Below, one piece after another: positions 1,970 to 58,200 of a stretch of DNA of 64,000 bases (the first letter of the stretch is position 1; every line of letters starts with the position of its first letter). Made by a program: the position numbers and the translations under genes. The stretch is taken from the NCBI GenBank assembly GCA_963930775.1, contig OZ005697.1, positions 7,090,292 to 7,154,291 of the forward strand, read 5' to 3'. The stretch comes from Cliona cf. orientalis (Eukaryota; Porifera; Demospongiae; Clionaida; Clionaidae). Under the pieces are notes generated by a model, which did not search any database, was not told the origin of the DNA, and was given only the letters and a program-made list of their open reading frames with translations.

Positions 1970-1979
1970 ACCTAGTCTA

Positions 1980-2051
1980 TAGCCTGGAACCCAGGCGCGA
2001 GGGGGAGGGGGAAAGAGCGCCTGGTACACACTGTATGCGCATGCGCTTAAT
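1980..2051. repeat. left terminal inverted repeat
   Basis: 72 bp identical, in inverse orientation, to 7280-7351. It is GC-rich and contains an internal inverted motif (CCAGGCGC near the outer end, GCGCCTGG further in), which could form a hairpin or a transposase binding site. The 10 bp just outside (1970-1979) are repeated at 7352-7361. Confidence 0.93.
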
Positions 2052-2267
2052 TAATCAATGGGAAACGCGTGGTTGCGGCCGCCAAACGTCACCAAGTTAA
2101 TGGGTGTGGTCTTATGACGTCTGTAGCGCAAGCGCATGGCGCAAGCTTACCGTACGCGCGGGGTACGCGTACACGGCGATCGCGCGTGCGCAAAACGATC
2201 GCGCGCAATATTGAAGCTACTTTGTACTGTTACTGTTTAACGAAGCTGTATCCTAAGCCACGTGGTC

Positions 2268-5200
2268 ATGGAGGTGCACTGTCGACTTTGTATTCTGAAG
2301 ATTACTTCCAAGCACAGTGTTAGTTTGTTCAAGAGTGAAAACTTTCAGCAAAGTCTAGCAGCTAGAGTGGTAGCCCTGTTGGATGTGCCAGTGGAAAGCA
2401 ATGATGGATTATCCCAAGTCATCTGTGAGCGGTGTAAACGACGATTAGTGCGATTGGAGAAGGCATCAGAGGAGCTTTCTGACTTTAGAAAGCTAGCACG
2501 TGACAGCTACCAATCGTTTCTGCCCAGATCCTCACTGAAACGCACCAAAGAGACAAGTGCCATGGTTGGTGTATCACCTGATACACAGAAAGCTAGGCCA
2601 CCACCGAAAAGATTAACTACGAGAAGGCTAGATTTTGGACAGACATCAACTGGTGAGCAAGTGAATGATGCATATAGTACTGTACATATAGAGCTACATA
2701 AAATTATTTTTAATAGGTGAATGTCCATCTGTTGAGGGAATGATTCCGAATTCATTGTCCACGATCTCACAAAAGGACATTCCAATTACTCCCTTGAAAG
2801 TAACGGAACCATTACCCCTGAGTGAATGTAAGAATAGCATGCTTAATTAGAGTACTATGATGGACATTTTTCACTTACTTTAGTGCACATTAACACCACT
2901 TCTCAGCTGGCTTTACCTAAACAGACAGTAACAGTAAGGGTTTGCATTATTCCTTGATTGAAATAATATTATTCTTGCTTAATACTCTATAGGTATGTGT
3001 GTCTTCTCGCTCTAAAATGACCTCTTATTCAAAAGTTCTCCCTGATGAATACACTAAACTTGGTAAAGAATTAGCCGGGGGCCATCTATCATCTGTAGCA
3101 ATAGCAGTAGTTGGGCATAAGCAGTTGCAGGAAGAAATTCTTAAATTACTACTTGATAAAGTTGATAATGAATGCAGTGAGCTTTGTCGTCGGCAGTCTA
3201 GTAGTCGATCATTGTTTCGGCGTGCTCCACTGATGCAATTTTTAGAATGGGATTGGAAGCTTGCTATAGATGAGCTTGCTAGTAAGGCACCAACCCTGCT
3301 GCATGTTCTTACCACTATTGCGTCGCGCTCTGACCATCGCAACTCAAAGAAGTTAGGAAGTGCTCACTATCCTGGTATTATTATGAGTGCCGCTGTCATC
3401 CTAAAAGAGAGAAATAGAGAAATGATAGGAATCCAATCGCTTATATCTCTACTTCTATTCAACTCACGAGTGGAAAAACAAGTAAACATTTTATCGATTT
3501 TGTATAATATTATTATAATTTATGCAAACAATGCTCTATAATCAGGTTTACCATCGCCTTAATCATGTTGGAATCTGTCTCAGTTACAATGGCACACTAA
3601 AGTTAATTGATGAGGTTAGTAAACTTCACAGTGTTCCACTGACGCAATGGATTGCTGATGGTGTTGTATTTAAATTTTGGGGTGATAACGTAGACAAAAA
3701 GAGGGGCGTGAGAGATGTTAGATCTGATCATCAAAAGTCTATGGTGCACATGTACAGTATTCTGGCAGGGCGCAGCCGCACTCCTGCTCCACACCTGTCT
3801 GATCAGGGAAATGTTGCTGACTTAGCAGGTCTATTTTATACAGAGTTTTTACCAACACAGCATGATGTGGAACGTGTTACATCCAACATGGTGGTAATTG
3901 TAAGTAGAATACTCACTGAGTACATAAGTGATCTTGCACCTTTGTCAAAGGCTGTGATAAAACATATTCCCCATAAATACTCGGCAGAGATGTCAAAAAA
4001 ATCGGAAGTAGTTGTGCTTGATGTATTGATGAAAAACGAAGCTAAACATAGTGACATGATTGATATTCTAAAGCAGATGGTGGGTTATCTAGGAGACGAT
4101 TATCCTCACGAGAAAAGGGTGGCATCTGGAGGAGATCAGTTAACAACGGAGAGACAGGTTGGAGCTCAGCGTCATGTTATGTGTGGAAATCGTCCAGAAG
4201 ATCGCCTGGATGTTCTCGAGCCACAAACAGAAGACTGGCATTGTCTTGTAGTTCTTTTGACAGTAAGTAACTATAAAAATTTATTCTATATACATGGCAT
4301 TATTAACAGTTATACTATTGTTATACTAATTGTAGGTGATTTGGAAGACTTTGTACAGACATTCTTCACGAGACCACGGTACACTTGGTTATTTTCAGAG
4401 TTTGCTGAATAGATATAATGTAAAAGACCCGAAGAAAGAGGTAGATGCTAGTATAGACTTTCTTCTGACGGTTGTAAAGGGTCATTTTTTGGCATGTGCT
4501 TGTAAGATACTCGGAATAACGTCACTCAACTCACGAGTAGCATTGCCACCACACATTTACAAAGCCACCATTGATCAGCAAAGGGCATACATCACATCAA
4601 TTGCAAAACAAGTAGTATATCAATGCACTTTAGTCAACGAAAGCTTCGTTAACGGAAAGGTATGCGACTCAGGCGACCACATCTACAACTATGCTAGGGT
4701 GCTGTGTCACTTTGGTACCATGGTCATGGAATTCGGAGGTGGATGGGGCAATGGTGATAGTGATAGAATGTTCACATGCTGGCGTCTGCTTTTACCTCAT
4801 TCATAGTAGCTGGACGAACAAAATATTCATTGGAGGCTTTAAGACTTCAAATACAGGTCAAGTCTGTGTTATCTCCTCAATTAGCACATCATGTCAAGTG
4901 GGATCGGTTTGTAAATACACATGGAGGGGCTGGGAGAAATATCCCATGTGACCTTTATAATGAGCACGTGAATAAACTTCTAAAGCATATCATTGTAACT
5001 ATGGGTGCAAACTTCACAGAAAAGGCACTACATAGAGCTGCTCAATCAGTAACCACCTTAGAGAGCATTTGTGAGAGATTTGATCAACAATCTGGAGTCC
5101 CAGTGGGCACTCATGCTCATTCAACCCGTTGTGATAAACAAGATATCAGCAAGGTTATTAATACAGTCTTAACTAGAGAACTACTTGAAATACATCCAGG

Positions 5201-5381
5201 AAGGGCACACACAGCTTTCAAAACAATGAGACTAAACCCCCTATGGAACTGGGACATTAGCAAGACTCGGGAGTGGATAGAAAAAAAGAAAAAGCAGTTT
5301 ATTATGTTTAGAGGAGCTATGAGAAGAGAGGATTCAGAGGAGAGCTGTAGTGAGGCTGATAGTGATTACGAAGATGACTAG
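2268..5381 (+). CDS. transposase of the helicase transposon (one frameshift)
   Basis: Six exons join with consistent GT/AG borders and phases: 2268-2652, 2717-2827, 2884-2933, 2993-3481, 3546-4262, 4336-5381. The product would be about 930 aa. The N-terminus has a ZAD-like zinc-binding pattern (CRLC ... CERC). The central part contains a GDNVDKKRG block and a GGDQLT block. The C-terminal part contains a GDxDR motif and an AGRTKYSLEAL block. This pattern fits a DUF6589-type transposase, with the Asp-rich blocks as candidate catalytic residues (inference). The last exon loses one base near 4798-4803, creating a TAG at 4804; the downstream frame to 5381 is otherwise intact and ends in an acidic tail. 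The lesion could be mutation or an assembly error. Confidence 0.8.
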
Positions 5382-5481
5382 CTTTTGAAAGACAATAATT
5401 GACTATCTTATGTACATAACATGTGCACGCACACAATGTATGTAATAAGCAAAATGTCATCATTATGAACACTTATTATTA

Positions 5482-7142
5482 TTATTGTGGGTGTGAACAT
5501 ACATCACAACAAGTATGTGGATTGGTACCTACACAAGCTATAGAAGGATCAAAGTAGTCCAGAAGCCATTTTCGACGACAAACAGTGTTATTTTCAAGAT
5601 ACCTCCTAACATTTGCAACCTCATGATCCCTTACGCTAGTTAGCTCCTTTCTCATGGGGCAGTCTTTGGGCTTCCAAAATACAATAGATTTAGCAGGATC
5701 ACCACTACGGCCTCCACGTCCACTTTCTTGGAAGTAATCGTCAATACTTTGTGGAGCACCATAGTGAATGATTGTGTTTGTAGCTTTGAGATCAATGCCC
5801 ATTCCTAGTGCAACAGTTGCAAAAATAGTCCGCACAACACCATCCTCTTGAGACAAGCTCTTTAGTATAACCTCCTTGTTGTACTCTGGAGTATGCGCAT
5901 GGAACATTCCAAAGAGACGGTTATCACTAACTTTGTCAGCACCATCTGGATAGTACGCTTTTTCACCTAGTTCATACAGAAAGTATGCATACAATTCTGA
6001 ACATACATTTAACGATCGACAGTAGATAATTGTCCTTGGTGATTTAACTCTAAGTTGCTTCAGGGATTCCAAATAAGGATTTAGATCACTTTCCATATCG
6101 GTTGATCTCAACACTTTGTAGAAAATATTAGGCCTATCTGGAGACTTGCTAATGATTTCACATCCTTCCATTTCAAGCCTCTTGATAATTTCATCACGTA
6201 CACTTTTGGTAACTGTTGCAGTGCAAGCAAGCAGGGGGGTAGATGGTGGGACAAGAGCTCGAATCTCATGTAATCGTCCATAGGATGGCCTAAAATCCTT
6301 ACTCCTGAAAGATATACAGAGGTATGGAAAAGGAAAAGAGAGCCAGGGGAGAGAGGGATAGAGATAGCGAAAGAGGGGGGGATAGTTGTGTAGCTTAAAG
6401 GAAATAATTGACAAAATTTAATATACATTGTATACGTACACGGTCACAGTGACTGGCTACAGCTAATTCTAAACAGGCATCGTAAAACACAGAATCTGAA
6501 GATGGATGCACAATATATTACTAAAGCACATACCAATGGATAGTGCTAGTAGCACAATCTATCACATACAGGGCCAAGCGTGGCTACTATTATACATGTA
6601 CTTGCTTCAGTACATGCGTATATTATGTACTAGTGAATTAGTGTTGCATACCATTTAGAAACACAGTGTGCTTCATCAACAATAACAGCTACGACTCTGT
6701 CATGGATGCCAGATTGTTGAAGCAACTCTCTCCATTTAGAGCTCACTAGGGCTTCAGGAGAACAAAATAAGAGGCTGTACATACATGAGTCACTGTGTTC
6801 ATCAGATGCTATGACTTCCTTTTGAGTCCCTTTTCCATATGAAATGACTGCAGCACTGACTCCATAACTTCTGAGAGTTATCACTTGACTGACCATCAGT
6901 GAAATCAATGGTGATATTACCAAAACCAGACTTCTGTTGTCCTTGTTGCCTAGCTTGTAGTCGTATGCGAAAGGCAAGGCTTCAAAGCATATAGATTTTC
7001 CAAATCCGGTGGGCAACCACACGAACGTATCTTTTCCCATGAGTACGGACTTGATGGCTTGAGTTTGCTCGGGCTTGAGAATAAGCGAAGGTCGCCCAAG
7101 ACGCTCAAGGGCGTACTGAAGGGCATAGTCAGCTTCCTCCAT
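5482..7142 (-). CDS. RecQ-like superfamily-2 DNA helicase (transposon-borne)
   Basis: Two exons on the minus strand, 7142-6652 and 6304-5482, join in frame to a complete 437-aa protein. Visible motifs in order are a Q-motif-like LKPEQTQAI (residues 22-30), Walker A PTGFGKS (about 44-50), SPLISLM, DEAH box, ACTATVT (motif III), IIYCRS (motif IV), LGMGIDL (motif V) and QESGRGGRSG (motif VI). A Cys-rich end (CRRKWLLDYF ... CCDVC) resembles the RecQ zinc-binding domain. There is no HRDC domain, so it is shorter than host RecQ proteins. It lies convergent to the transposase inside the same terminal repeats. It probably acts with the transposase by unwinding DNA during excision or integration (inference). 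All catalytic motifs look intact. Confidence 0.88.
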
Positions 7143-7279
7143 ATACGCGATACTGTAGCGGCCGTATGGCTTGCATGCACTATGGATGCATTACGTATTT
7201 ACGATTACGTAAGCACTACTGACGTCAGCATGAAACGGACTTTTACTGAGGAATACTGAAGCCGTGGAATGTCAGGGCG

Positions 7280-7351
7280 ATTAAGCGCATGCGCATACAG
7301 TGTGTACCAGGCGCTCTTTCCCCCTCCCCCTCGCGCCTGGGTTCCAGGCTA
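7280..7351. repeat. right terminal inverted repeat
   Basis: Exact inverse of 1980-2051. It ends ...CCAGGCTA and is followed at 7352 by the target duplication ACCTAGTCTA. Confidence 0.93.
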
Positions 7352-8119
7352 ACCTAGTCTAGTGAGCATGCGCACGCATGCCCAATGCAAACATATTGGT
7401 CATGTGATTTCATAAGTGGGCGAGAGTACGTCACAGACTATTGAGATGGTAGTAGTAAATAAAAATTAACTGGGCGTATCCCAGAGGTTTCTTTTCTCAA
7501 AAAATCTATTGCGCATGCTCAGAACATAATTAACCACGCCCTCTGGTCCTCAAAATTTTCTCCAAAAGTAGGATCGGACCCGAGAAGCAGAGTATTACCA
7601 TAGCGTCCGAACTATATCATCTATGGTAGCTATTACCGTAAAAGTTCTAATTACAGTACCGCTCTAATTTAAGCACCACTTGGCATTCATATTTTTCTGT
7701 TCCAATTATAGCGCTAACCTCCAGTCAGAAATATTAAAACTGGTGCTTATAATTAGAATGTGGTAAATTTCATAACGGCCACGCATAAGCATCTTCGGGA
7801 TTACCGTGCTCCCGCTGTGTTGCTAGTGCTTCTCTGACTGTAGCTAGCTAGGAGTCGAAATAGCTTGGTACACATGAAAGCCACATAGCTACCACAGCAT
7901 AGAAGCTGACTTCAACAAAAATCGAAATCACCCAGCATATCTGTAAAAAATGATACCGGTAAGTAGCTACCTGCAGGTACGCAATTCTAAGCACCGCTAG
8001 CTCGTTCTAATAATTAGTAAGCGCCACTGGCTACTTAACACAATTTTTTACGTTCTAATATAAGCGCCACACGAAGATTAGAATTATTTTTTTTTGGCGC
8101 TGTAATTAAGGTAGCATTA
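7352..8119. repeat. decayed inverted-repeat elements, no gene
   Basis: The words ACCGTAAAAGTTCTAATT (from about 7630), AAGCGCCAC and TTCTAATATAAGCGCC recur in both orientations and resemble the element at 37938-38922. They look like remains of one or more MITEs of that family, but clean ends cannot be fixed. No coding region is seen. Confidence 0.4.
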
Positions 8120-13283: not shown

Positions 13284-15143
13284 TCAATCAGAAGAGTTAT
13301 TGTATGAATAACCGTCTGTAACTGCTTGATCTATGTAGCGGCCATAGATCTCTTCCACATCGTGTTGACGAAACATTCCCTCATCCCTTGTCCTGTACTT
13401 GTACCTCTTGGCCGCTAATGAGAACAGAATCAAACCAATCAATCCAGTGACACTTGTCAATGCAAGATAGACAAACCCACAGTTAATCACTGGAGGGTGC
13501 TCTATCATTTCCCTACTGGCCCACGGCTGCTTCTGGGACAAGGGAATGATGACAATGGAATTGAGGAACTGAAAGAGACCTCTAATGGCAAAGAAGACTC
13601 CAACAAAAAGACCTTTCATGGACTGAGGGCTCTGAGCTGAGATGAACTCCAAAGTTGTGGCAATGACCAGCATGGGTCCAATTCCAAGAAGAAGAGTTGG
13701 TGGGATTAGAACTCCCCAGTGCATGTTGAGTGCAGGATAGGTGAAAGACCTATTTTGGGATATTGTTGCTTGAAATACACACAGGCTATGATGAGAAAAA
13801 CTATTTCTATTCAATACGTGTCCTATAATATCTGTGACTAGTAAACTCACAACTCCCAAGAGACAGAGTGTGATTCCAATACCCAGTCGCACAAACAGCT
13901 TTGGTACTTGCTTATGAAGATAATAAAATATGATCCATATATAAGTGGGAAAGAGAATCACTATGGAAACTAGATTCATCATTGCTCCGCTGCCCGTCAT
14001 TAATTTTAAGACAAATTCTTTTGTACATAGTTCATGATACTTTTTGTAATGATCATACGGATGTAGTAAATGCAATCCAAAAAGTGGGAAAATGAAGTAA
14101 GATGCTGGTACTTCCAAAGCAAATGAAGGTCCAATTGCAAATAGTATCACTAGCATCCGAAGAAATGTCTTGACATTTTCCACCTGCTCTGTAGTAAAGG
14201 GTCCTCCAAATCTCTCCTTGGCAAAATCCAGCCTGGATGGAATATAGTCATCATTATAGGTGAAGGCACTGCGTTGGAGAGGATGCTTGTGGCTTTTCGC
14301 AAAATTTATTATATTACATACCATCTTATAAGGATTTTGACGTCCAGGCTCAATATGGAACCACTTACGCTTCAAACAGCCAATCAGGAGTAATACAATC
14401 ATCAATATATTGAATAAAATAGTTGCAGTTAATGCTAATGTCTTGCGGCTTGACCAATCATGTGAACATAGCATTAAGAAAGAAACAATTATAAATGATA
14501 GTGATCCTGATCGAAAAGCCCATATAGCATAATGAATGAAGAGAACGAGATAACGACTTGGTGCTTCAAAGAGTTGGTCTAATCCAAGTTGAATAAAATT
14601 TGCCTGATATCCTGTCAGGCCAATAAGGAAAGCAAATATTGACAGAAAAGCTAAAATGACAATGGACATGGACGGCACTTTATCATATCTCAGAGCATGA
14701 TCAAGATTAGAAGCTGTGACTGTTTCCCCTATTGTCATGCCAATGAATAAAATAGTGAGACAAAGGAGAAGAATAATTAAGCTGATCACAACCGTTTTCA
14801 GTCGTCCACAGCAAACGTCGGCAATAAACCCACTCAGAGGGTAGAGCATCATGATGAATGCTAATATGGCGTATGGAAGAGGCTCATATATTGAGATACG
14901 GGAATTAATTCGTGATCCGTCAATTTCTTCCACGGCAGCAAAACCCATTAATACGTTATACAGAGCTCCAACAATGGCTGTCCATAGCAGGATAAGAATG
15001 GCCGCCTTTGATGGCAGACAGAGGTGCTTTGATGGAGGACATGAGATGGCAGCCCTCTGCTGTGGTTGAAGTGGAGAGGAGTCCTCCTCACTTGCAGTGT
15101 TAACCAGCAGACGACTAGATTCAGATGGATGAGCCATGGCCAT
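13284..15143 (-). CDS. SLC15/POT-like proton-coupled transporter, intact
   Basis: A single uninterrupted frame encodes about 619-632 aa. The conserved start among paralogs is the MAHPSES Met at 15137 or the Met two codons before it; the frame itself opens at 15182. The protein has about twelve hydrophobic segments. The GYQANFIQLGLDQL block at roughly residues 180-195 matches the PTR2/POT signature. SAQSPQSMKG in the C-terminal half matches the POT AYSQAP-SMK motif. The first helix lacks the classical ExxER proton-coupling motif, so transport mode is uncertain. The N-terminal tail has an acidic dileucine signal (ESSRLL), which in SLC15A4-type proteins targets endolysosomes. Substrate is unknown; peptides or histidine are family guesses. 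It is intronless, unlike other genes here. Confidence 0.85.
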   Translation of the reverse strand: MAMAHPSESSRLLVNTASEEDSSPLQPQQRAAISCPPSKHLCLPSKAAILILLWTAIVGALYNVLMGFAAVEEIDGSRINSRISIYEPLPYAILAFIMMLYPLSGFIADVCCGRLKTVVISLIILLLCLTILFIGMTIGETVTASNLDHALRYDKVPSMSIVILAFLSIFAFLIGLTGYQANFIQLGLDQLFEAPSRYLVLFIHYAIWAFRSGSLSFIIVSFLMLCSHDWSSRKTLALTATILFNILMIVLLLIGCLKRKWFHIEPGRQNPYKMVCNIINFAKSHKHPLQRSAFTYNDDYIPSRLDFAKERFGGPFTTEQVENVKTFLRMLVILFAIGPSFALEVPASYFIFPLFGLHLLHPYDHYKKYHELCTKEFVLKLMTGSGAMMNLVSIVILFPTYIWIIFYYLHKQVPKLFVRLGIGITLCLLGVVSLLVTDIIGHVLNRNSFSHHSLCVFQATISQNRSFTYPALNMHWGVLIPPTLLLGIGPMLVIATTLEFISAQSPQSMKGLFVGVFFAIRGLFQFLNSIVIIPLSQKQPWASREMIEHPPVINCGFVYLALTSVTGLIGLILFSLAAKRYKYRTRDEGMFRQHDVEEIYGRYIDQAVTDGYSYNNSSD

Positions 15144-16344
15144 CACTGTTGTGACTCTAATCGTAAAGTTGAAAACTGTCAAGTTATCAAAATCTAGCTA
15201 TTTGCTATTAATGACCACTCTTGATTCAACGCAGAATCGTATTTGATAATTATTTTTATAATACCTTACTATTAATCCTTATCGTCACTTTTACATAACT
15301 ATAACTGCAAAACCTTCAAGTTGTCGTTCTATATTTTTGCTACTTATGGACATGATTCATCATCATAACACTATGTCTTGTATTATCAGTTTCCCGAACA
15401 TGTACATGCACTGCCATGGCATCATATTTTATTTGCATGTTAGTTTATCAAGTTTCTATTCTGTGTTTACTCTCTTCCTTGCTCTATTTTTGCTATTAGT
15501 TTCAGTTTAACGGGTCCCAACCAATGATTCTATCCTTTGTTTACACTCGGGGCCCAGAGGGATTCAACCTTAGTTGGAGAGGACGCCTAATAGTATATGC
15601 TTTTGGAAACTCTTCATTAATAATGATCCTATTATAATATTGTACAGACTCAATCATAATTATTAATTTTATGATAATGAGCTAACGCCATGCATTATTA
15701 CAGGCTGATCTGGATCATGATCAAGGACCATTCACGTGACACCTGCATAATATTATAGATCGTAGGGAGTGGGGTTGGCTTGTGATCGCATAGCACACAC
15801 ACATAACATTATGCATGCATCCATAAGCTACAACCCCCCCTCCCCCAAACAATATCAGATCTAGATTCTGTAGCTAGTAACTCATTGATAAGATCATTGG
15901 GTAAACTTAGTTGACTATATTATGCATCCTTTGTGATACTTATTAAGTTAAGGGGATAATAGAAATGTGATGCAATATTGGGGTAATTATTCCACTATGC
16001 TAGGTGCTGGGTTGATCTTCTTCATGGGCGATCTGGTCTTCATTTCTGAATCTGTTTGCCGAGTGCTGATGATCCCTTCAAGTGCGGCTTTTAGGACGAC
16101 TTGGGTTAAAATAACTACTCGTGTAATTTTTCAGTCAGTTCTCTTGATAAGTAAGGTAAATCCAGCAGCGACTTGTACTGTGGTTTCTCCTTATCTGATT
16201 CTACAGTGCATGGCAAAGGAAATCAATTTCGAATTCTTCCTCTCCGTCCCTCCCTACCCTCACTCTCTACCTCTCATATAATATTATACACACATACTAA
16301 CTAGCCTTGTTCCCAAGCAACTCCCAGTTTCTTGAATTCAACAT
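15144..16344. other. duplicated 5' flank of the transporter gene
   Basis: The stretch 15480-16240 is similar to 24830-25700, the upstream flank of the other intact transporter gene, including the words GGGGCCCA, AGATCGTAGGGAGTGGGGTT and ATCATTGGGTAAACTTAG. The duplication unit therefore included several hundred bases upstream of the coding frame. Promoter elements may lie here but none is identifiable. Confidence 0.55.
15990..16215 (-). pseudogene. decayed exon shared by both transporter flanks
   Basis: The minus strand holds a coding-like stretch (ESDKEKPQYKSLLD..., LTEKL, SSALGKQIQK) interrupted by stops and frameshifts. A better preserved copy lies at 25467-25715. The sequence is not recognised. 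Because both copies lie at the same distance upstream of an intact transporter gene, it was carried along in their duplication. Confidence 0.4.
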
Positions 16345-22159: not shown

Positions 22160-24004
22160 TCAGCTAGAAGAGTTACTGTGAGAATAACTGTCTGTCATTG
22201 CTTGATCTATGTAGCGATCATAAATCTCTTCCACATCGTATTGACGAAACATTCCCTCATCCCTTGTCCTGTACTTGTACCTCTTGGCTGCTAATGAGAA
22301 CAAAATCAAACCGATCAATCCAATCACACTTGTCAACACAAGGTAGACAAACCCACAGTTAGTCACTGGAGGGTGCTCTATCATTTCTTTACTGGCCCAC
22401 GGCTGATTCAGGGACAAGGGAATGATGACAAGGGAATTAAGGAAATGAAAGAGACCTCTGATGGCAAAGAAGACTCCAACAAGAAGTCCTTTCATGGACT
22501 GAGGGCTCTGAGCTGAGATGAACTCCAAGGTTGTGGCAATGACCAGCATGGGACCAAGTCCAAGAAGAAGAGTTGGTGGGATAAGAACCTCCCAGTGCAT
22601 GTTGAGAGATGGATAAGTTAGAGATCCATTGCTTGATATGGTTGCTTGGAATATACACTGAGTATGATTGACAAAACTTTTCCTGTTCAGTACATGGCCC
22701 ATAACATCAGTGATAAGTAAACTCACAACTCCTAATAAACAGAGCAAAATCCCAATACGCAATCGTACGAAAAAGTTTGGTAATTTTCTTTGAAGACGAC
22801 AGAAAATGATCCATATGTAAGCAGGAAAGAGAATCACTGTTGATATTACAGTCATCGCTGTTCCACTTTCGAACATTAGCTCCCAAACAAATTTATTTGT
22901 GCAGTACTCTTTGTGATATGTATACTGGTGGAGTAAATGCACTCCAAATAATGGAAAAATGAGATAGGAAGCCGTTACTTCTAAAACAAACACAGGTCCA
23001 AGTGCAAAAAGAATGAGAAGTATCCTTAAGAATGTCTTTACATTTTCTACTTGCTCTGTAGTGAACGGTCCTCCAAATCTCTCCTTGGCAAAGTCCAACC
23101 TAGATGGAATATAATTTTCAGAGAAAGTGAAGGCACTGCGTTGGAGAGGATGCTTGTGGCTTTTTGCGAACTTCAGAATTCCATAAACTATCTTGTAAGG
23201 ATTCTGGTAACCAGGTTCGATGTGGAACCATTTACGTTTCACACAACTGACTAGAAGCAACACAGCCATTGACAAGACAAACAGTATAGCAAAGGTTAAT
23301 ACTAAGCTTTTATTCAATTCAACATTATGTGAACATAGTGCAAGATAAAATATTGGTATAAATGATAGTGCTCCAGACTGGAAAGCCCATGTAGCATAGT
23401 GAATAAAGAGGCCTAGGTACTGACTTGGTGCTTCAAAGAGTTGATCTAATCCAAGTTGAATGTAGTTGGCCTGGTATCCCGCAAGGCCAATAAGGAAGGC
23501 AAATAATATAAGAAATGCAATTAAGGCAACTGTAATCAATATTCCCTTGTTATGTTTATCAATGTGGGAAAGTGCATTTATAGCATTCCCCAAAGTTATT
23601 CCAATTAGCAGAATAATAAGACAAATGAGAAGAATGACCAAGCTAATGATAGTTATCTTCAGTCGTCCACAGCACGCATCAGCAAGAAACCCGCTCAGAG
23701 GATAGAACATCATGACTAGAGCCAATATAGCATATATCAATGAATCATATACAGAGAAATTAGTACCATATTTTGACTTGTATATTTCAAGAATTACAGC
23801 CAGACCCAAGAAGACATAGTATATTCCTCCGATAATGGCTGTCCATAGCATGATGAGAATGGCCGCCTTTGATGGCAGACATAGGTGCTTTTGTGGAGGA
23901 CATGAGATGGCAGCCCTCTGCTGTGGTTGAAGTGGAGAGGAGTCCTCCTCACTTGCAGTGTTAACCAGCAGGTGAGTAGATTCAGAGGCATGAGCCATCA
24001 TCAT
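22160..24004 (-). CDS. SLC15/POT-like proton-coupled transporter, intact
   Basis: A single open frame without introns encodes about 612-625 aa. Three adjacent Met codons (24004, 24001, 23998) precede the conserved AHASES motif and are the likely start; the frame opens at 24037. About twelve hydrophobic segments are visible, with a POT signature GYQANYIQLGLDQL in the first half and SAQSPQSMKG in the second. The long hydrophilic loop between helices VI and VII contains KWFHIEPGYQNPYK and LDFAKERFGG, typical of this local family. ExxER is absent in helix I. The tail carries the dileucine signal ESTHLL. It is about as divergent from the 13284-15143 gene as any pair in the array. Substrate unknown. 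Confidence 0.85.
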   Translation of the reverse strand: MMMAHASESTHLLVNTASEEDSSPLQPQQRAAISCPPQKHLCLPSKAAILIMLWTAIIGGIYYVFLGLAVILEIYKSKYGTNFSVYDSLIYAILALVMMFYPLSGFLADACCGRLKITIISLVILLICLIILLIGITLGNAINALSHIDKHNKGILITVALIAFLILFAFLIGLAGYQANYIQLGLDQLFEAPSQYLGLFIHYATWAFQSGALSFIPIFYLALCSHNVELNKSLVLTFAILFVLSMAVLLLVSCVKRKWFHIEPGYQNPYKIVYGILKFAKSHKHPLQRSAFTFSENYIPSRLDFAKERFGGPFTTEQVENVKTFLRILLILFALGPVFVLEVTASYLIFPLFGVHLLHQYTYHKEYCTNKFVWELMFESGTAMTVISTVILFPAYIWIIFCRLQRKLPNFFVRLRIGILLCLLGVVSLLITDVMGHVLNRKSFVNHTQCIFQATISSNGSLTYPSLNMHWEVLIPPTLLLGLGPMLVIATTLEFISAQSPQSMKGLLVGVFFAIRGLFHFLNSLVIIPLSLNQPWASKEMIEHPPVTNCGFVYLVLTSVIGLIGLILFSLAAKRYKYRTRDEGMFRQYDVEEIYDRYIDQAMTDSYSHSNSSS

Positions 24005-24268
24005 TAATTTTATGTCACTGACTGTGACTAACTGCAAAAACCTTCAAGTTATCGTACTATTTTTTTTTACTATTTATGGACATGATGCATCAGGATATAC
24101 GTGATATAACAGTAACTCTATTATCTTGCTCTGTTTTTGTATCAGTTCCCCGAACATATACACTGCCATGGTATCACGTTTTTAAAGAGATTTTGCTTGT
24201 TAGTTTTAATTTAATATATACAATATTTCTATTCCATGTTTACACTCTTTCTTGCTCTGTTTTTGTTA

Positions 24269-33390: not shown

Positions 33391-36300
33391 CTAGACAGCA
33401 TTATCCACAGCTTGCTTGAGTTCAGTGGCCACCTGACCGAGTTCACTGTGATCAAGGAGCTTGTAGAGACCCTCCCAGGTGGCAGGGTAGTGGCGGGGAG
33501 GGTGGTCTAGCCAGTGACAGAGAACAGCAGTGCAGCGAGCCTTGGCATCCTTTTCATTTGCCCATACATCAAGTAGTTGCCTGGGAACCACCAAATCACC
33601 AACGTCCCTCCACCTGTGCATGATGGACAGCTTCAGCCGAAACTGCTTCTCCTCTCCTTTCTCATCCCTCCATATGATCAAGGTCATATTAGTGGAAGTG
33701 GGCTTGGCTATGTGTGTAAACAGAATGTGTGAGTATGGCCTGTACTATGAACTACATAGCACTGAATACTCACCCATTTGATTTATCTCTTCAGTAGACA
33801 TGGAGCTGACATCCTCTGGGACACATGGTGCGGGTGGGTTGGAGGCTATGCAGGGATTCATAGATTATCAACTGCTGGTACAAGCCCAATACTATCCAAA
33901 TGCACACACACATACATTATATTATGAAATCAGCAAACTCTTACACGATATTCAGTCCTTGAGTATTATTCTCTTAGCCTTGTACCAGCTCCCGTTTTCA
34001 GTGGAAAACTGGCAATGGGCCTGGGGATGAGGCTACGACTCTCTAATTATTGTACACTTTAGAAATATCGAGAGGAAAATCAACCCCAGGGGTAGTCTGT
34101 GCTCCCAAACCCTTTAGAGACTGCCATTATTATTAAAATTTAATAATGTTAGGAGGAGTGATTTACATGTAGCTACTGATAACACATGGATGTTTTGTTA
34201 CTCTAACTCACCAGAATGGTCTGTGGTGGACTGGGTGGTGGACCTAACTGCCGCTGACTGTGTCGGTGGTCTACCAGAAGGCGTGGACGCTACAAGATGC
34301 ATGGATTACGACAAGACTGTTAATACGGACACTATCCAAGTGCACATTCATGTACATGTACATAAACATGTACAAAAAATTATGTATCATTACGACCAAA
34401 TTAGCAAACCCTTACATGATACTGTGTCTTTAGCTGCTCCAGATGATATGGAGATGTACTCTGGAATGTGTGGAAGGTGAGGGGCTGTAGGTGGCAGGTC
34501 ATAAGGTTAATCACTGTAAGTAGATATTTTCAGTTTCAACTTACTAGAGGAAGTGGTTTGTGCACTGATTGATTGAGTGGGCAAAGATAAACCAACTGAA
34601 GTGGATGTACAGGATCCAGATGCTGGAAATAAAAATAATATTGTGTGTGATGACAGTACTTTCCCCTCATTTTGCATGCACCTCACCTTCGGAGGAGGGT
34701 GGCTGGGAAGTGGCATACAGACTAGCGGATGAAGCTGAATTGTCGAGCACTACAGAGCAAAAAATTAAAGAAGCGAAGTGGCTTGAAGGCAAGATCAGAA
34801 GGCATAGATTCAGCAAAACATACCTTTTCCAAACCAGATGTGATGACAGTTCTCAAGTCGACCGCTGATCTTAGTGTCAACATCGCAGCACCAAAACAGT
34901 TCATCTGAGGTGATAGAAGCAGAGTGCAGTTCAGACTGCAGTGAGGCATCCGGGGAACCAGCCTCAGAATGTGGGCAGACAAAGCCAATCTCAGGGTAGG
35001 TGTGTGTGTACTTCAGTGCTCTACAAGCAGCAGTGATCCCAGCAAAGATGGACCCCTTCAGAATGGGAAGCAGTCGAGCGCATTCATCGAGTGTGGCTTG
35101 TAGGCTGACATCAGCGTGAACTTCAATGAAGGAGTTTGAATCGATCACTGTTACTGTACACGGAGGGCTGACCATGAGATGAAACTTGATGCAGTTTCGG
35201 TAAAGAGGCTCTTTGGTGTCCAGCAAAAGCTTCCACCCACAGTAACGAACTAGGTGGACCGCAAAGCAGCAAAACACTCCAGCGCGTCGAGAGGCTTGAG
35301 GAAACTTTACCAGTAGGGTAGCTACTGCTGTAGAAGATGTGCGATGCTTTTTCAGCTCAGCATCCGAAAGGGTGACTAGAGAAGCAGGCATTACAAAGTG
35401 AGGCTCTGAGTCCTGAGGGGGGCTCGCTGAAGGGGAATCGGCTGGTGGAGGGGAGCTAGTGGTAGCGGAGCTAGTGGGAGGTGAATCTGGCGGAGGCTTT
35501 GCCCAATCAGGAGTGGGTATGGGAGCAAAGACCAACGACTCCTTGAGAAGCTCAGAGAGGTCATCGATAGTGAATATTCCAGGGACATAATGACTTGGAA
35601 ACTTTTTCATCAACTCTGGGCTAAGCACACCGTGGTCTCGAAAGTGCCTCCATTTACCTTCGCCAGGAGTAGAATTGGAACTCGACTGTTCCATTGGTAG
35701 ATCTCCCCTGAGAAGATAACTTTCTCTGACAAGCTCTGAGACTTTATCGAGTGGAACCTGTGAATCTGCAAAAACGATATTGGGAAGCACTTTGGGGGAA
35801 TATTTGATGACATTGAGCTTGTCAAAAAACACTAAAGCAGCTTCTAAAGCTTTCTCCTTAAATCCAAGCGTATTTGCAATCTCAAGGCACTCTGCTTTGC
35901 TGAGAACCTTTCTTCCTAATCTCTTTGCTAACTCTTGGAGTAGCAGTTCAAAAATGTACCACCAGATTGGCACCTCTACTTCTTGTGCTGGTGAGTTCTC
36001 CACAGCCTTTCGGACCACGGTAGCCCTGGCTTTGTCTGTCTCTTCTGGGTTGAGAGTGTTGAGAGGAATCAGTAGCTGCTTCATATCCTTGGAATGGTAC
36101 ACCAGCTGATCGGAAAACTCTGGCTCAAGCATTTCACGTAACTGCTGGTCTTTGTCTTCCAGTGACTCAAAGGGCAAAGAAGCTGCTGACGATCCTTGTA
36201 GTTGACTGGATTCACCAACAGCAGGAGTGACAGAAGCCGCCTGCTCAGCTTTCTCCTCCAACAGATCTCGGTGAGTGCCAGCTAGGATGATGCTGGGCTT

Positions 36301-39300
36301 CTGGCCTTTGGTAGAGAATGACTGAATGGTGTTGACAAGACATCGAATGGTGTCCTTGGCAGAGAGCTGGGACTGCTGAGCAACACCAAGGAGCTGATTC
36401 TCACTGTAGTACTCGACAGCTTGAACTTTGTCGAGCTGGTCGGGAAGGCGAAGGACACACAGAGCGGCTGAGATGTGCTGAATGAACAGTGGCAGTAGCT
36501 CGTGGTACTGAGGCTGTCCACCGCAATCTGAAAGGTAGACCCAGATGGATTCAAGAAGATTCGTTGTAGCCTGAATGGAGGAGGCTTCTCGTGGCTTTTT
36601 ATTTCTCAACGTAGTAATAATTTTCACCAGCTTATCCATGATATCACTCACTGCTGTTTGGTAAGTTTCAGAGGGGACAGTAGGCTGTGGGGCTAATGCC
36701 ACGACTGGAAGATTGGCACCATGGGAATATTCGAGCTGTTGGTGTGTTCGCTTGCGGCTTCGAGTTTTGACCCAGCGAACAAATCTTGAAAGTGGATTCT
36801 CCTTTGCCACCTTCTTCACCTCCACTTCACCGCAGCTCTCTGCTTCTCCACCTTGCTGAGGTAGCCCTGCCTCCCTGGTCAGCTCATCACTGATTTTCTG
36901 GAATTGAAATCTTTTGCTTTGGGGGTGCTGCTCAGATGCAAGGATGATCATTTGTGCTACAATCTCCAGCATTCCTTCGTTGTCGACTTCTACCCACCGT
37001 TCTCCACTAGCTCTTAGTTTGATGTCAGAAATGGCCCGCACTTGGACCTCGATCCTGATAGGTGTCTCGGCACAGATGGTGCTGCTGCGTAGCTCTGGTG
37101 GAGGTAGTCCCATCAGGAGGAACTTCAAACACGTCTTCCCCACTCCAGGTAGACCAATGATGATGCAGACGATGTACCTCATCTTCACTGATCCCTCCTT
37201 CAAACCTTCTTCAAGAAGTTTTTTATTTTGAGCCTCCTCTGAAAATTCAAAACATGCCATAGTCAGCTATTGCCAGCCTCTCAAGTAACTTTAGTGAAAC
37301 TACTATCACTGGATAGCTATGAGATTTAACTCAATGCTCAGTGTCATAGGTGTGCACCATTTAAGGGCGATCTTCAAATCAAAAACCTAAGTACATGTAC
37401 ATTGTACATGTAGTTTTATTAAAGGGATATCATATAGACTCCTTTATACCTACATGTTTTAAGTGGTTTCCCTACTATATAATTATGAAAGGGATAATGG
37501 GATCTATAAGCCCTGCAGCTACAAATGTATAATTATGCTAAATTTACCTTTCCTGTAGAGAACCTTGCTATGGTACCACCTTACTACTTAGTGGGGATAT
37601 ACATGTACATCCAAAGTAGACAATCGTATCTCTACACATGCATAATAAATTAACTCATCCCCCAAAACTTGTTACGACTGTTGGATGACACTTAAATGGA
37701 ACTTGTGCCTATGGTGTGTGTTCTTCAGATATTTTTACACAAGTTTAGGATACCCCACACATAATCGATCTGTAGCGTGTGGGCAGCAAGTGTGATGTAA
37801 CCAGGAAGTTCAAATCACGACCATGTGACATCATCTGTACATCACCAAAATTTAATTGGCCAGACCTTCCCCCCTTTTTGCATGTAACATTGAAAATATG
37901 GAATAGGGCTGGGCACGAGGAAGCAGCCAGCAGTTACTACCGTTTATGTTCTAATATAGGCACCACCCTAATTTAGGCGCCCTTTGGGGCCTGTGCAATT
38001 TTTTCGGTTCTAATTTAAGGCGCCTTTCCGGACATCAATTATTTTTAGGCGGCGCCTATTTAATTGGAACGTATTGCCACGTGCAATATGGCAATACCGC
38101 GGTACCGTACCGTACCATCGATTGATCTATCGAGCTAGCTGTTTAGATGTCAAACTAAGCTGCCTCTTACATTTATATGGACACTTACCGACTGCTTTGA
38201 TGTCTTTCTGGAGTTAGAAACAATCGTTCTGATGGCTACGGTATCGACAACTCGAGAGTGATTCAGCGATCAGAGTGAAATTTCCAAAAAGAACTGAAAC
38301 TAGAACCATGTTTTAGTTGTTCTCGTCACCGTCATATTCACTGCCACTAAATAGGACCAGTTAGCTACTGATAGCGCTTGTGCTCTGGCAAAACTTCCAG
38401 AACCGTTCTAATTGCAGCTCTTAGGCGCCTCCCTAATTTAGGCGCCCTTTGACCCGCTCGTGAATTTTTTGGTTCTAATTGGAGGCACCTGCGCGATCTG
38501 TAATTACCGTAGAAACTGGTTGTTAAGCGCTGCTCGCTGTTAAGCGCATACTTTTTATTAAGCGCATAGTTTTGTGCGAGCTTTACCGCTCTTTGTTAGG
38601 CGCATATGCCCAGCAAGCCAGCTAAACAATGAGCGGTCGGTTACATGAGCCCAGAAAGAAGGCTAGAAGTAGGCTGGAGAAGAAAACGTCGAGAATTACG
38701 CTCTCTGGTCGCTTCTTGGCCACCGTTGTAGGCCTTTCTACCCTCGACACGTTCTTTACGCACGCCCCACCTACCGTGTTATAGCGCTTTTAATTAAGCG
38801 CATGCTTCCTGTTAAGCGCATACTTTTTGTTAAGCGCATATTTTCTTGCTGCCGCGTGTTATAAGCGCATGCGAGTTTCTACGGTATTTTTTGGGGGCGC
38901 CTATATTAGAAAGTATACGGTATTCTACTAGGACAGGATACATATACATGTATGTGTATCTAATACTGGAATGGGACTTCGTGTCACAGGCAACCACAGT
39001 ACATACCAAAAGCTTACCTCATTATGTTGCTACACTAAGCAGCGTCAGATTTTACTTTACACTCAAAACAATATCATACAGTACAGATCACAGCTAACTT
39101 GACAAACGAGTGCGAGTAGCGAGGAGGTGACTCGCGTGGCCTGGACGTTCACGTGCGCGTGCCAAAGGCGCCCTCGACGCGCAAGCGCGAGTACTCGCAC
39201 GCTCGCGCATATCCCCACGCACTCGCGAGTACGTATAGGGCGTGGTCCAATTATTGCACCAACAAGACAATGGTGGCAAGATCGAGATAACAGGCAGTTC

Positions 39301-47874: not shown

Positions 47875-48266
47875 TAGCCTCGTTCCCAGGCTCTCCCCCT
47901 CCTCTTTATTTTATACGCGCGATCATATTTACACGAAATTATTGTGCAGAGAGAAGGGAGGGGGAGAGCCTGGGAGGCTTTGATCACGTGCGGACACTGA
48001 TGACGCGTTCCATATGTCCATGTATGGGAGTCCAAAAGAACGAGAAAGAAGCCCGGATCAGCATGCTAGTAGGCTTTTTAGAGTGCTCTACTGATGGCTC
48101 GATCGATGGACAAGACTGCCACCAAACTTTTTGACGCCTCGCGCTCTTGAACCTCTTACAGTGCCAGTGAGTTGGCTGCCATGATCCAATGATGATCGTT
48201 CTCAGAGATTCAATATGATCGCGCATATAAAATAAAGAGGAGGGGGAGAGCCTGGGAACGAGGCTA
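47875..48266. mobile_element. 392-bp MITE with TAGCCTCG ends
   Basis: Inverted repeats of about 55 bp begin TAGCCTCGTTCCCAGGCTCT with one or two mismatches. The flanks GTGGGTTAG (47866-47874) and ATGGGTTAG (48267-48275) form a 9-bp duplication matching at 8 positions. The empty site is readable in cassette 1 at about 42620-42640. Terminal TAGCCT and duplication length resemble the helicase transposon. Confidence 0.8.
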
Positions 48267-55206: not shown

Positions 55207-58200
55207 CTAGATGGCATTGTCAACAGCTTGCTTGAGTTCAGTGGCCACCTGACCGAGTTCACTGTCATCAAGGAGTTCATAGAGACCCTCCCAGGTGGCA
55301 GGGTAGTGGCGGGGAGGGTGGTCTAGCCAGTGAGAGAGAACAGCAGTACAGCGAGCCTTGGCATCCCATTTGTCATTTGCCCACACCTCAAGCTGCTGCC
55401 TGGGAACAACCAAATCACCAACGTCTCTCCACTTGTGCATGATTGATTGCTTCAGTCGGAATTTCTTCACCTCTCCTCTCTCATCCCTCCACCTGATCAC
55501 CGTCAAATTAGTGGAGGTGGGCTTGGCTATGTGTGTAAACAGATTATGTGAGTATGGCCTGCATTATGAGCTACATAGCACTGCATACTCACCCATTTCA
55601 TTTATTTCTTCGGTAGACATGGAGTCGACGTCCTCTGGGATACATGGTGCAGATGGATTGGAGGCTGTGCAGGGATTCGTACAGGATTATCAACTGCCGG
55701 TACTTCAGGAGGGGGAGTCAGACGTGCTCCAGTACCATAGCTTCCCCATGCAGGCCCATTCCCATGCAGCTTACTCACTCCTGTTTTAGTAAAACTGAGC
55801 TGGGAATGGGTCTGGGGATAAGATTATGATTCTCTAATATTTGAGAGGGGAAATCAACCTCAGGGGTTGGAAATCCCATCCATCTAAATACTTCCGTGGA
55901 TTAAAAGATTTGTTTGGAGGAGGTAGTAATTTACTGGTAGAACACAGGATCTATTTTAACTCACCATAATGTTCTATGGTGGACTGGGTGGTGAACCTAA
56001 CTGCCGCTGACTGTGTCGGTGGTCTACCAGAAGGTGTGGACGCTACAAGATGCATGGATTAGGACAAGACTGTTAATACAGACACTATCCAAATGCACAT
56101 GCATGTACATGTACATGTACAATGTGCACATGTGTGTCATTACGACAAAATTCAGCAAATCCTTACACAATGTTGTGTCTTTAGCTGGTCCAGATGATAT
56201 GGAGATGTGCTCTGGAATGTGTGGAATGTGAGGGGCTGTAGGTGGCAGGTCATAAGGTTAATCACATTTATAAGTAGATGCACATGTCTTTTCAGTTTCA
56301 ACTTACTAGAGGAAGTGGTTTGTGCACTGGTTGATTGAGTGGGTAAAGATAAGCTAACTGAAGTGGACGTACTGGATCCAGATGCTGGAAATAAAATCAT
56401 AATTATTGTGTGAGATGACAGAAATTTCCCCTCATTTTGCATGCACCTCACCTTCAGAGGAGGGCGGCTGGTAAGTGGTATATAGACTAGCGGATGAAGC
56501 TGAATTGTCGAGCACTACAGAGCAAAAGGTATAAAAGTAAAGTGATTGAAGGCAATATCAGATATAGACTCAGTAAAACATACCTCTTCCTAACCAGATG
56601 TGATGACGGTTCTCAAGTCGACCGCTGATCTTAGTGTCAACATCGCAGCACCAATACAGTGCGTCTGAGGTGAAAGAAGCTGAGTGCAGTTCAGACTGCA
56701 GTGAGGCATCCGGGGAACCAGCCTCAGAATGCGGGCAGACAAAGCCAATCTCGGGGTAGGTGTGTGTGTACTTCAGTGCTCTACAAGCAGCAGCAATCCC
56801 AGCAAAGATGGATCCCTTCAGAATGGGAAGCAGTCGAGCGCATTCATCGAGTGTGGCTTGTGGGCTGACATCAGCGTGAACTTCAATGAAGGAGTTTGAA
56901 TCGATCAGTGTTACTGTACACGGAGGGCTGACCATGAGATGAAACTTGATGCAGTTTCGGTAAAGAGGCTCTTTGGTGTCCAGCAAAAGCTTCCACCCAC
57001 AGTGACGAATTAGGTGGACCGCAAAGCAGCAAAATACTCCAGCGCGACGAGAGGCTTCAGGAAACTTTACCAGTATGGTACCTACTGCTGTGGAGGATGT
57101 GCGATGCTTTTTCAGCTCAGCATCCGAAAGGGTGACCAGAGAAGCAGGCATTACAAAGTGAGGCCCTGAGTCCTGAGGGGGGTTCGCTGAAGGAGAATCA
57201 GCTGGTGGAGGGGAACTAGTGGGAGGGGAGCTAGTGGGAGGTGAATCTGGCGGAGGCTTTGCCCAATCAGGAGTGGGTATGGGAGCAAAGACCAACGACT
57301 CCTTGAGAAGCTCAGAGAGGTCATCGATATTGAATATTCCAGGGATATAGTGACTTGGAAACTTCTTCATCAACTCTGGGCTAAGCATACCGTGGTCTCG
57401 AAAGTGCCTCCATTTACCTTCGCCAGGAGTAGAATCAGAACTCGACTGTTCCATTGGTAGATCTCCCCTGAGAAGATAACTTTCTCTGACAAGCTCTGAG
57501 ACTTTATCTAGTGGAACCTGTGAATCTGCAAAAACGACATTGGGAAGCACTTTTGGTGAATATTTGATGACATTGAGCTTGTCAAAAAACACTAAAGCAG
57601 CTTCTAAAGCTTTCTCCTTAAAGCCAAGCATATTTGCCACCTCGAGGCACTCTGCTTTGCTGAGAACCTTTCTTCCTAATCTCTTTGCTAACTCTTGGAG
57701 TAGCAGTTCAAGAATGTACCACCAGATTGGTACCTCTACTTCTTGTGCTGGTGAGTTTTCCACAGCCTTTCGGACCACGGTAGCCCTGGCTTTGTCCGTC
57801 TCTTCTGGGTTGAGAGTGTTGAGAGGAATCAGTAGCTGTTTCATATCCTTGGAGTGGTACACCAGTTGATCGGAAAACTCTGGCTCAAGCATTTCACGCA
57901 GCTGCTGGTCTTTATCTTCCAGTGACTCAAAGGGAAAAGAAGCTGCTGGCGATCCTTGTGGTTGACTGGATTCACCAACAGCAGGAGTGACAGAAGCCGC
58001 CTGCTCAGCTTTCTCCTCCAACAGATCTCGGTGAGTGCCAGCTAGGATGATGCTGGGCTTCTGGCCTTTGGTAGAGAATGACTGAATAGTGTTGACAAGA
58101 CATCGAATGGTGTCCTTGGCAGAGAGATGGGACTGCTGGGGTACACCAAGGAGCTGATTCTCACTGTAGTACTCAACAGCTTGAACTTTGTCGAGCTGGT

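Follow-up and report, generated by a model that had tools for sequence, protein, structure and literature searches.

The transposon and its two genes

The window analysed here is a 64,000-nucleotide stretch of the genome of the sponge Cliona cf. orientalis (contig OZ005697.1, positions 7,090,292 to 7,154,291). Positions 1980-7351 of the window are occupied by a DNA transposon, which is bounded by perfect 72-bp terminal inverted repeats (TIRs), flanked by a perfect 10-bp target site duplication (TSD), and contains a transposase gene and a RecQ-type helicase gene lying tail to tail. The initial annotation of this DNA had described the repeats, the duplication, a multi-exon DUF6589-like transposase and a RecQ-like helicase with its motifs and zinc ligands, the latter as a two-exon gene of its own in convergent orientation. 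All of these were found at the following positions.

1970..1979, no strand: left TSD, 10 bp, ACCTAGTCTA
1980..2051, + strand: left TIR, 72 bp, tip TAGCCTGGAACCCAGGC
2268..2652, + strand: transposase exon 1, zf-AD domain (Pfam E 4e-8)
2717..2827, + strand: transposase exon 2
2884..2933, + strand: transposase exon 3
2993..3481, + strand: transposase exon 4
3546..4262, + strand: transposase exon 5, DUF6589; contains the candidate catalytic Asp residues of GDN (near 3684) and GGDQLT (near 4134), located by eye
4336..5381, + strand: transposase exon 6, DUF6589; frameshift near 4799, candidate catalytic Glu (DLYNEHVN) near 4962, beyond the frameshift
5482..6304, - strand: helicase exon 2, second RecA-like domain, motifs IV-VI, RecQ Zn-binding region
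6652..7142, - strand: helicase exon 1, first RecA-like domain, Walker A PTGFGKS, DEAH
7280..7351, - strand: right TIR, 72 bp
7352..7361, no strand: right TSD, 10 bp, ACCTAGTCTA

The element begins with TAG. Within the window the 20-bp tip of the TIR was present solely at the two ends of the element, and with up to 3 mismatches allowed it was absent from all 100 shuffles of the sequence. A chance inverted repeat is ruled out by this control and by the perfection of the 72-bp TIRs.

Further copies, whose existence the initial annotation had proposed as a check, were found in the genome (217 Mb, 149 contigs). Two sister copies are of full length and carry both genes. L031 (C3:3671571-3676943) differs from the window copy by 7 substitutions in 5372 (0.13%) and one gap column, and L032 (C1:19662040-19667407) by 25 substitutions in 5356 (0.47%) and 28 gap columns. 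The TSD of L031 is CATTCAACAC (10 bp), that of L032 has 9 bp, and the flanks of both are unlike those of the window copy. Since the flanks differ and each copy has its own TSD, the three copies are separate, recent insertions, and the possibility that one insertion had merely been duplicated was ruled out. When the flanks of the window copy were joined, leaving one copy of the TSD, they aligned unbroken to C9:7049942-7050124 (79%, query 5-204), 42 kb away. To judge from the alignment, this place looks as expected of a related unoccupied site.

The ends were surveyed in 16 fetched loci, with TSD lengths of 8-11 bp tried in 15 of them. Both TIRs and an exact 9- or 10-bp TSD were present in 9 of the 16. 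Together with the window copy this makes ten elements with exact TSDs, of 10 bp in the window copy, L031 and L033 and of 9 bp in L032, L035, L040, L041, L043, L044 and L046 (the TIR tips of L046 have one mismatch); the duplicated sequences are unrelated to each other. Five loci (L037, L038, L039, L042 and L045) had one end within the slice, and L034 is a fragment with one end. Exact matches to a 17-bp tip pattern (TAGCCTSGWNCCCAGGC) numbered 1657 + 1666 in the genome, against 0 + 0 for the reversed control. The tip matches far outnumber the places with DUF6589, pointing to a large number of short relatives.

The six exons of the transposase gene are separated by GT..AG introns of 56-73 bp, and DUF6589 was matched in three frames of the window copy (Pfam E 6e-14, 1.6e-6 and 1.7e-17). 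The intact transposase of L031 has 932 amino acids, with zf-AD at the N-terminus followed by DUF6589. Relative to L031 and L032, the window copy carries a one-base frameshift near 4799. As a result its product follows the L031 protein up to residue 739 of 932, then departs from it and stops almost immediately, before the candidate catalytic Glu. In L032 the gene is broken by a 10-bp deletion in exon 5, and among the three full-length copies both genes read through in L031 only. The window copy had been called a complete transposon, which holds for its ends and its helicase but not for its transposase. It can still supply the helicase but probably no longer a working transposase; therefore it would now move only in trans.

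Candidate catalytic residues were sought by motif in 15 loci. GDN was found in 14 of them (not in L055), a GD.LT-like motif in 14 (not in L056) and D(L/Q)..EH.N in 11 (not in L036, L037, L041 and L046). In L031 the spacing of the candidate triad is D392-149-D542-251-E794. Judged by these motifs, the transposase looks like a DDE-like enzyme with a long insertion ahead of the Glu.

The helicase gene consists of two exons separated by a 347-bp GT..AG intron and encodes 437 amino acids. The protein matched the Pfam families DEAD (E 2.5e-18), Helicase_C (E 1.6e-12) and RecQ_Zn_bind (E 1.8e-5). It displays the motifs PTGFGKS, DEAH, TAT, IIYC, FATVALGMG and QESGRGGR, and its Cys-rich RecQ Zn region lies at the extreme C-terminal end. 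Neither RQC nor HRDC had a Pfam match in the two helicase frames. The best PDB match of the exon-2 part was WRN (105 bits), followed by bacterial RecQ, BLM, RECQ1, RECQ5 and RECQ4.

Linkage, phylogeny and selection

The genome search for DUF6589 yielded 338 candidates, of which 102 were scored (122 matches merged to 102 places), and a first search for the helicase yielded 142 matches merged to 122 places. A helicase from this first search was located within 6 kb of 74 of the 102 scored DUF6589 places. The orientation was convergent in all 74 cases, with a gap of 226-1755 bp; with uniform placement of the first helicase set, the chance expectation per place is about 0.7%. At one further place, on C10, the nearest helicase fragment was inverted and the main helicase body convergent. 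The first search left 27 places without a partner. One of these, L055, has a more distant helicase, and when the L055 helicase was used as the query, 25 of the 27 places gained a convergent partner, 1.9-3.3 kb away. Overall, a convergent RecQ-type helicase was found at 99 of the 102 scored places, in addition to the partly inverted one on C10.

L055 and 24 further places form a subgroup, in which the helicase is too divergent for the first search and has its first exon roughly 2-3 kb downstream from the transposase match. In L033, a degenerate copy on C10, an inverted fragment of the helicase 3' part lies inside the element at 2322-2429, and part of the transposase is missing.

The two proteins have diverged together. 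Among nine families (L055, L056 and near-copies excluded), which reach down to 26-33% transposase identity, the pairwise identities of helicase and transposase co-varied with a Mantel r of 0.95, and with 0.82 (p 0.0006) when the most distant family was removed.

Selection was analysed with the best high-scoring segment pair per locus and query. Frames with stops or of 100 amino acids or less were excluded, so that 14, 17, 16 and 14 rows were kept for the queries hel1, hel2, tp3 and tp5; tp2 and tp4 were not included. For pairs in which the nonsynonymous difference (pN) exceeded 0.1, the median pN and synonymous difference (pS) were 0.284 and 0.744 for helicase exon 2 (125 pairs) and 0.339 and 0.793 for exon 1 (81 pairs). 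The corresponding values for the two transposase parts were 0.281 and 0.789 (109 pairs) and 0.327 and 0.787 (83 pairs). By this measure both proteins are under purifying selection, the helicase being constrained about as tightly as the transposase.

The relation of the helicase to cellular RecQ proteins was analysed in a tree of 10 transposon helicases, host fragments of BLM (L059), RECQ1 (L061) and RECQ5 (L062), E. coli RecQ and five members of another RecQ family. The host fragments were named by their PDB matches (BLM 232, RECQ1 300 and RECQ5 263 bits; the lengths differ and the bits are a guide only). The 10 transposon helicases formed one clade (100/99), apart from the host BLM, RECQ1 and RECQ5 fragments and from E. 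coli RecQ, in a tree that did not include WRN and RECQ4. BLM fills 27% and RECQ5 46% of the columns of the alignment, E. coli RecQ deviates in letter composition, and the forks among the host rows are not settled. Grouping with the RecQ genes of the host, which the initial annotation had named as evidence against its interpretation, was thus not what the tree gave, and a captured host RecQ gene was ruled out by the separate clade, within the limits of a tree without WRN and RECQ4. The cellular RecQ proteins (BLM, WRN, RECQ1, RECQ5) likewise have the RecQ core and the Zn-binding region; the helicase of the element differs from them in the lack of an RQC or HRDC match and in its position outside the host BLM, RECQ1 and RECQ5 fragments.

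The second RecQ family, which is multi-copy, formed a clade of its own (100/99). It comprises L057 (577-4509, - strand), L064, L048-L052 and L063, with frames of up to 1310-1358 amino acids in which the RecQ helicase is N-terminal, and copies on C4, C6 and C10 score nearly equal. In L057 the helicase is followed in the same frame by a C-terminal part of about 690 amino acids, for which no Pfam match was obtained up to E 10. A search for TIRs and TSDs around this open reading frame revealed no convincing ends. The C-terminal part gives us the impression, presumably no more than that, of a MULE-like transposase.

The convergent linkage, the co-divergence and the purifying selection support the view that the helicase is part of the mobile unit. 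In this sense, as a member of the mobile unit, the earlier proposal that the helicase is part of the mobile machinery has stood.

Classification and possible role of the helicase

XPG is the nuclease of the AcademX transposons. It had no match in the scanned frames of the element, and the 4 XPG_I matches of the genome all lay away from scored DUF6589 places; on the latter ground AcademX was rejected as the class of the element, with which it presumably shares the superfamily. In the part of PMC10045372 consulted, TSDs of 9 or 10 bp are given for AcademH, which has a helicase, and of 3 or 4 bp for AcademX, which has a nuclease, whereas the element duplicates 9-10 bp. Already in 2013 Kapitonov et al. 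were cited for a RecQ helicase in Academ (excerpt of PMC3627910). AcademH is attributed to Kojima 2020 in the portions seen of PMC10045372 and PMC10799480, and a title in the reference list of the former places the lineage in animals and fungi.

Kolobok transposons were also considered. As described in a section of PMC9587614, KolobokH has a RecQ helicase downstream of the transposase domain, and in Kolobok-1_CCri the RecQ helicase is on the complementary strand, as in our element. Thus a helicase-bearing transposon, even one with an opposed helicase gene, is already known in kind. In Kolobok, however, the duplication is TTAA (4 bp) and the termini are 5'-RR (same section of PMC9587614), whereas the element duplicates 9-10 bp and starts with TAG. 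Kolobok and KolobokH were rejected because the target duplication is not TTAA.

With AcademH the element shares, by comparison of descriptions, the nature of a helicase-bearing DNA transposon and the 9-10 bp TSD. The element has a TSD of 9 or 10 bp, encodes a RecQ-type helicase beside the transposase and has no XPG nuclease match. Because the TSD length and the helicase type fit, the element is probably an AcademH transposon, that is, a member of the helicase-bearing lineage of the Academ superfamily, matched by published descriptions and not by sequence. The AcademH lineage named in the initial annotation agrees in these two features as the literature describes them. The name DUF6589 was absent from the literature searched, alone or with transposition terms. 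Taken as a whole, the element is with high probability a DNA transposon that has been mobile in the recent past, and its most likely type is AcademH; it has a zf-AD/DUF6589 transposase and a separate RecQ-type helicase.

Several observations weigh against this interpretation. The equation of DUF6589 with the Academ transposase rests on no alignment with an Academ or AcademH sequence. A PDB profile search with the transposase alignment found no transposase, the best match being a chance-like one to glutathione transferase (E 0.008). L036 has both TIRs and an imperfect TSD. At 2 of the 102 scored DUF6589 places no helicase was found, and 236 of the 338 DUF6589 candidates are outside the scored set. 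Conversely, 47 of the 122 helicase places, among them the helicase of the window itself, had no scored DUF6589 partner, in part because the 236 candidates were unscored and in part because RecQ genes of the host and others are also on the list. The single-gene trees of helicase and transposase are weakly resolved, and some of their forks are discordant. As to selection, the highest pN/pS in divergent pairs was 0.68-0.82, the degenerate L033 looks relaxed in helicase exon 2 (pN.073, pS.119), and near-identical copies gave erratic ratios, such as 1.87 on few changes for helicase exon 1 of L031 and L032; between families the synonymous sites are saturated and the pairs are non-independent, so that only the direction of selection is safe.

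In the mechanism that we envisage, the zf-AD/DUF6589 transposase would bind the TIRs, cut there and insert the element at a target cleaved with a stagger of 9-10 bp, which would give rise to the TSDs. The ZAD (zf-AD) domain would mediate the pairing of transposase subunits, and Asp392, Asp542 and Glu794 (L031 numbering) are the predicted catalytic residues for cleavage and strand transfer of the DDE type. The separate helicase gene, read from the opposite end, would provide a RecQ-type core made of two RecA-like domains and the Zn region, without RQC. This helicase may unwind the junction between transposon and target, or else a displaced strand, after which the host would fill the 9-10-nt gaps. 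We regard such a role as the leading possibility only in a tentative way, at somewhat less than even chances. It would fit the statement, in the part of PMC10045372 consulted, that the TSD length of Academ transposons tracks the accessory enzyme.

The helicase might instead be a passenger, a RecQ gene of the host trapped between the ends and irrelevant to mobility. The genome does hold RecQ genes (BLM-, RECQ1- and RECQ5-like fragments) from which it could have come. The convergent helicase at 99 of the 102 places, kept in families down to 26-33% transposase identity, argues against a passenger, as do the separation of the transposon helicases, as one clade, from the tested host RecQs and a constraint that resembles that of the transposase, and we consider a passenger highly improbable. 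The probability is also low, though not quite as low, that the DUF6589 transposase represents a different superfamily which acquired its helicase type and TSD length independently of AcademH. That the AcademH match was made by description leaves some room for this, and RecQ helicases have been recruited by another superfamily as well (KolobokH and Kolobok-1_CCri, section of PMC9587614 seen). On the other hand, a TSD of 9-10 bp and a RecQ-type helicase are the very combination described for AcademH (parts of PMC10045372 and PMC3627910), and the TTAA duplication of Kolobok is not that of the element.

Two further explanations concern what the helicase does. It could drive a replicative copy-out, in which one transposon strand is peeled off at a nicked end, in place of excision and repair. 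Simple cut-and-paste transposition needs no strand-unwinding enzyme, and this type of terminus is abundant in the genome, both of which would suit a copy-out. Perfect TIRs and exact TSDs, however, fit copy-out and cut-and-paste equally, and merely three full-length, near-identical copies of the family were found; a copy-out therefore seems unlikely to us, if less so than the other alternatives. Somewhat more doubtful still, about on a par with an origin outside AcademH, is that the helicase acts against the host, for example by countering silencing or repair, and takes no part in the transposition reaction. The helicase core has no RQC or HRDC match, so that its targeting must differ from that of the host BLM, which would suit such an activity; the near-constant linkage to one transposase lineage argues instead for a role tied to the transposase.

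Neighbouring features and the zf-AD domain

A short element outside the transposon, a miniature inverted-repeat transposable element (MITE), was absent from the initial annotation, as was the zf-AD domain.

47875-48266, no strand: MITE, 392 bp, TIRs of 55 bp (98%), tip TAGCCTCGTTCCCAGGC matching the terminus of related families

The MITE is flanked by GTGGGTTAG and ATGGGTTAG, a 9-bp duplication with one mismatch. Between 13284 and 31559 the window contains gene copies repeated at a spacing of about 2 to 7.5 kb. Among these, the frame at 13284-15197 matched the POT/PTR2 transporter family (Pfam E 9e-9), and the frame at 22160-24043 had no Pfam match at 0.001. A duplicated long frame of 818 and 798 amino acids at 34810-37266 and 56570-58966 likewise had no Pfam match at 0.001. 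In L047 another transposase-like frame (6346-8076, - strand) adjoins the divergent element of that locus; by its appearance it may be of the hAT/TTF-zinc-finger type.

The zf-AD domain is the least expected part of the transposon. zf-AD (ZAD) is chiefly the dimerisation domain of insect ZAD-zinc-finger transcription factors. It scored above the Pfam cut-off in the window copy and in all six relatives scanned (L035, L036, L037, L039, L040 and L045; L043 and L044 were excluded because their frames contain stops). A genome search returned 27 zf-AD matches, 25 of them above the cut-off. They include L031, L032, L035-L037, L039, L040, L042 and L044-L046; L033, L034, L038, L041 and L043 were not among them. 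Twenty-four of the 27 are in or near helicase-bearing transposons, 23 no more than 6 kb from a scored DUF6589 or helicase place and one (C2:14118920) in L042, and three (C4:7184806, C9:5304639 and C1:20584530) were not assigned.

ZAD might be a transposase module that pairs the two transposon ends, and the ZAD proteins of hosts might have been domesticated from such transposases, a proposal that we put forward as a speculation with little probability at present. The distant L047 and L055 had no zf-AD match in their N-terminal frames, which counts against a great age of ZAD within the transposon lineage. None of the literature titles searched joins zf-AD or ZAD to a transposase. The presence of zf-AD at the N-terminus of the transposase is a lead on the origin of ZAD proteins.

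About 100 scored places in one genome, nearly all of which keep the convergent gene pair, amount to a natural experiment on why a DNA transposon keeps a helicase. Together with these places, the near-identical recent copies, one of which (L031) is intact in both genes, open the way to tests of what the helicase does and of its reported link with TSD length.

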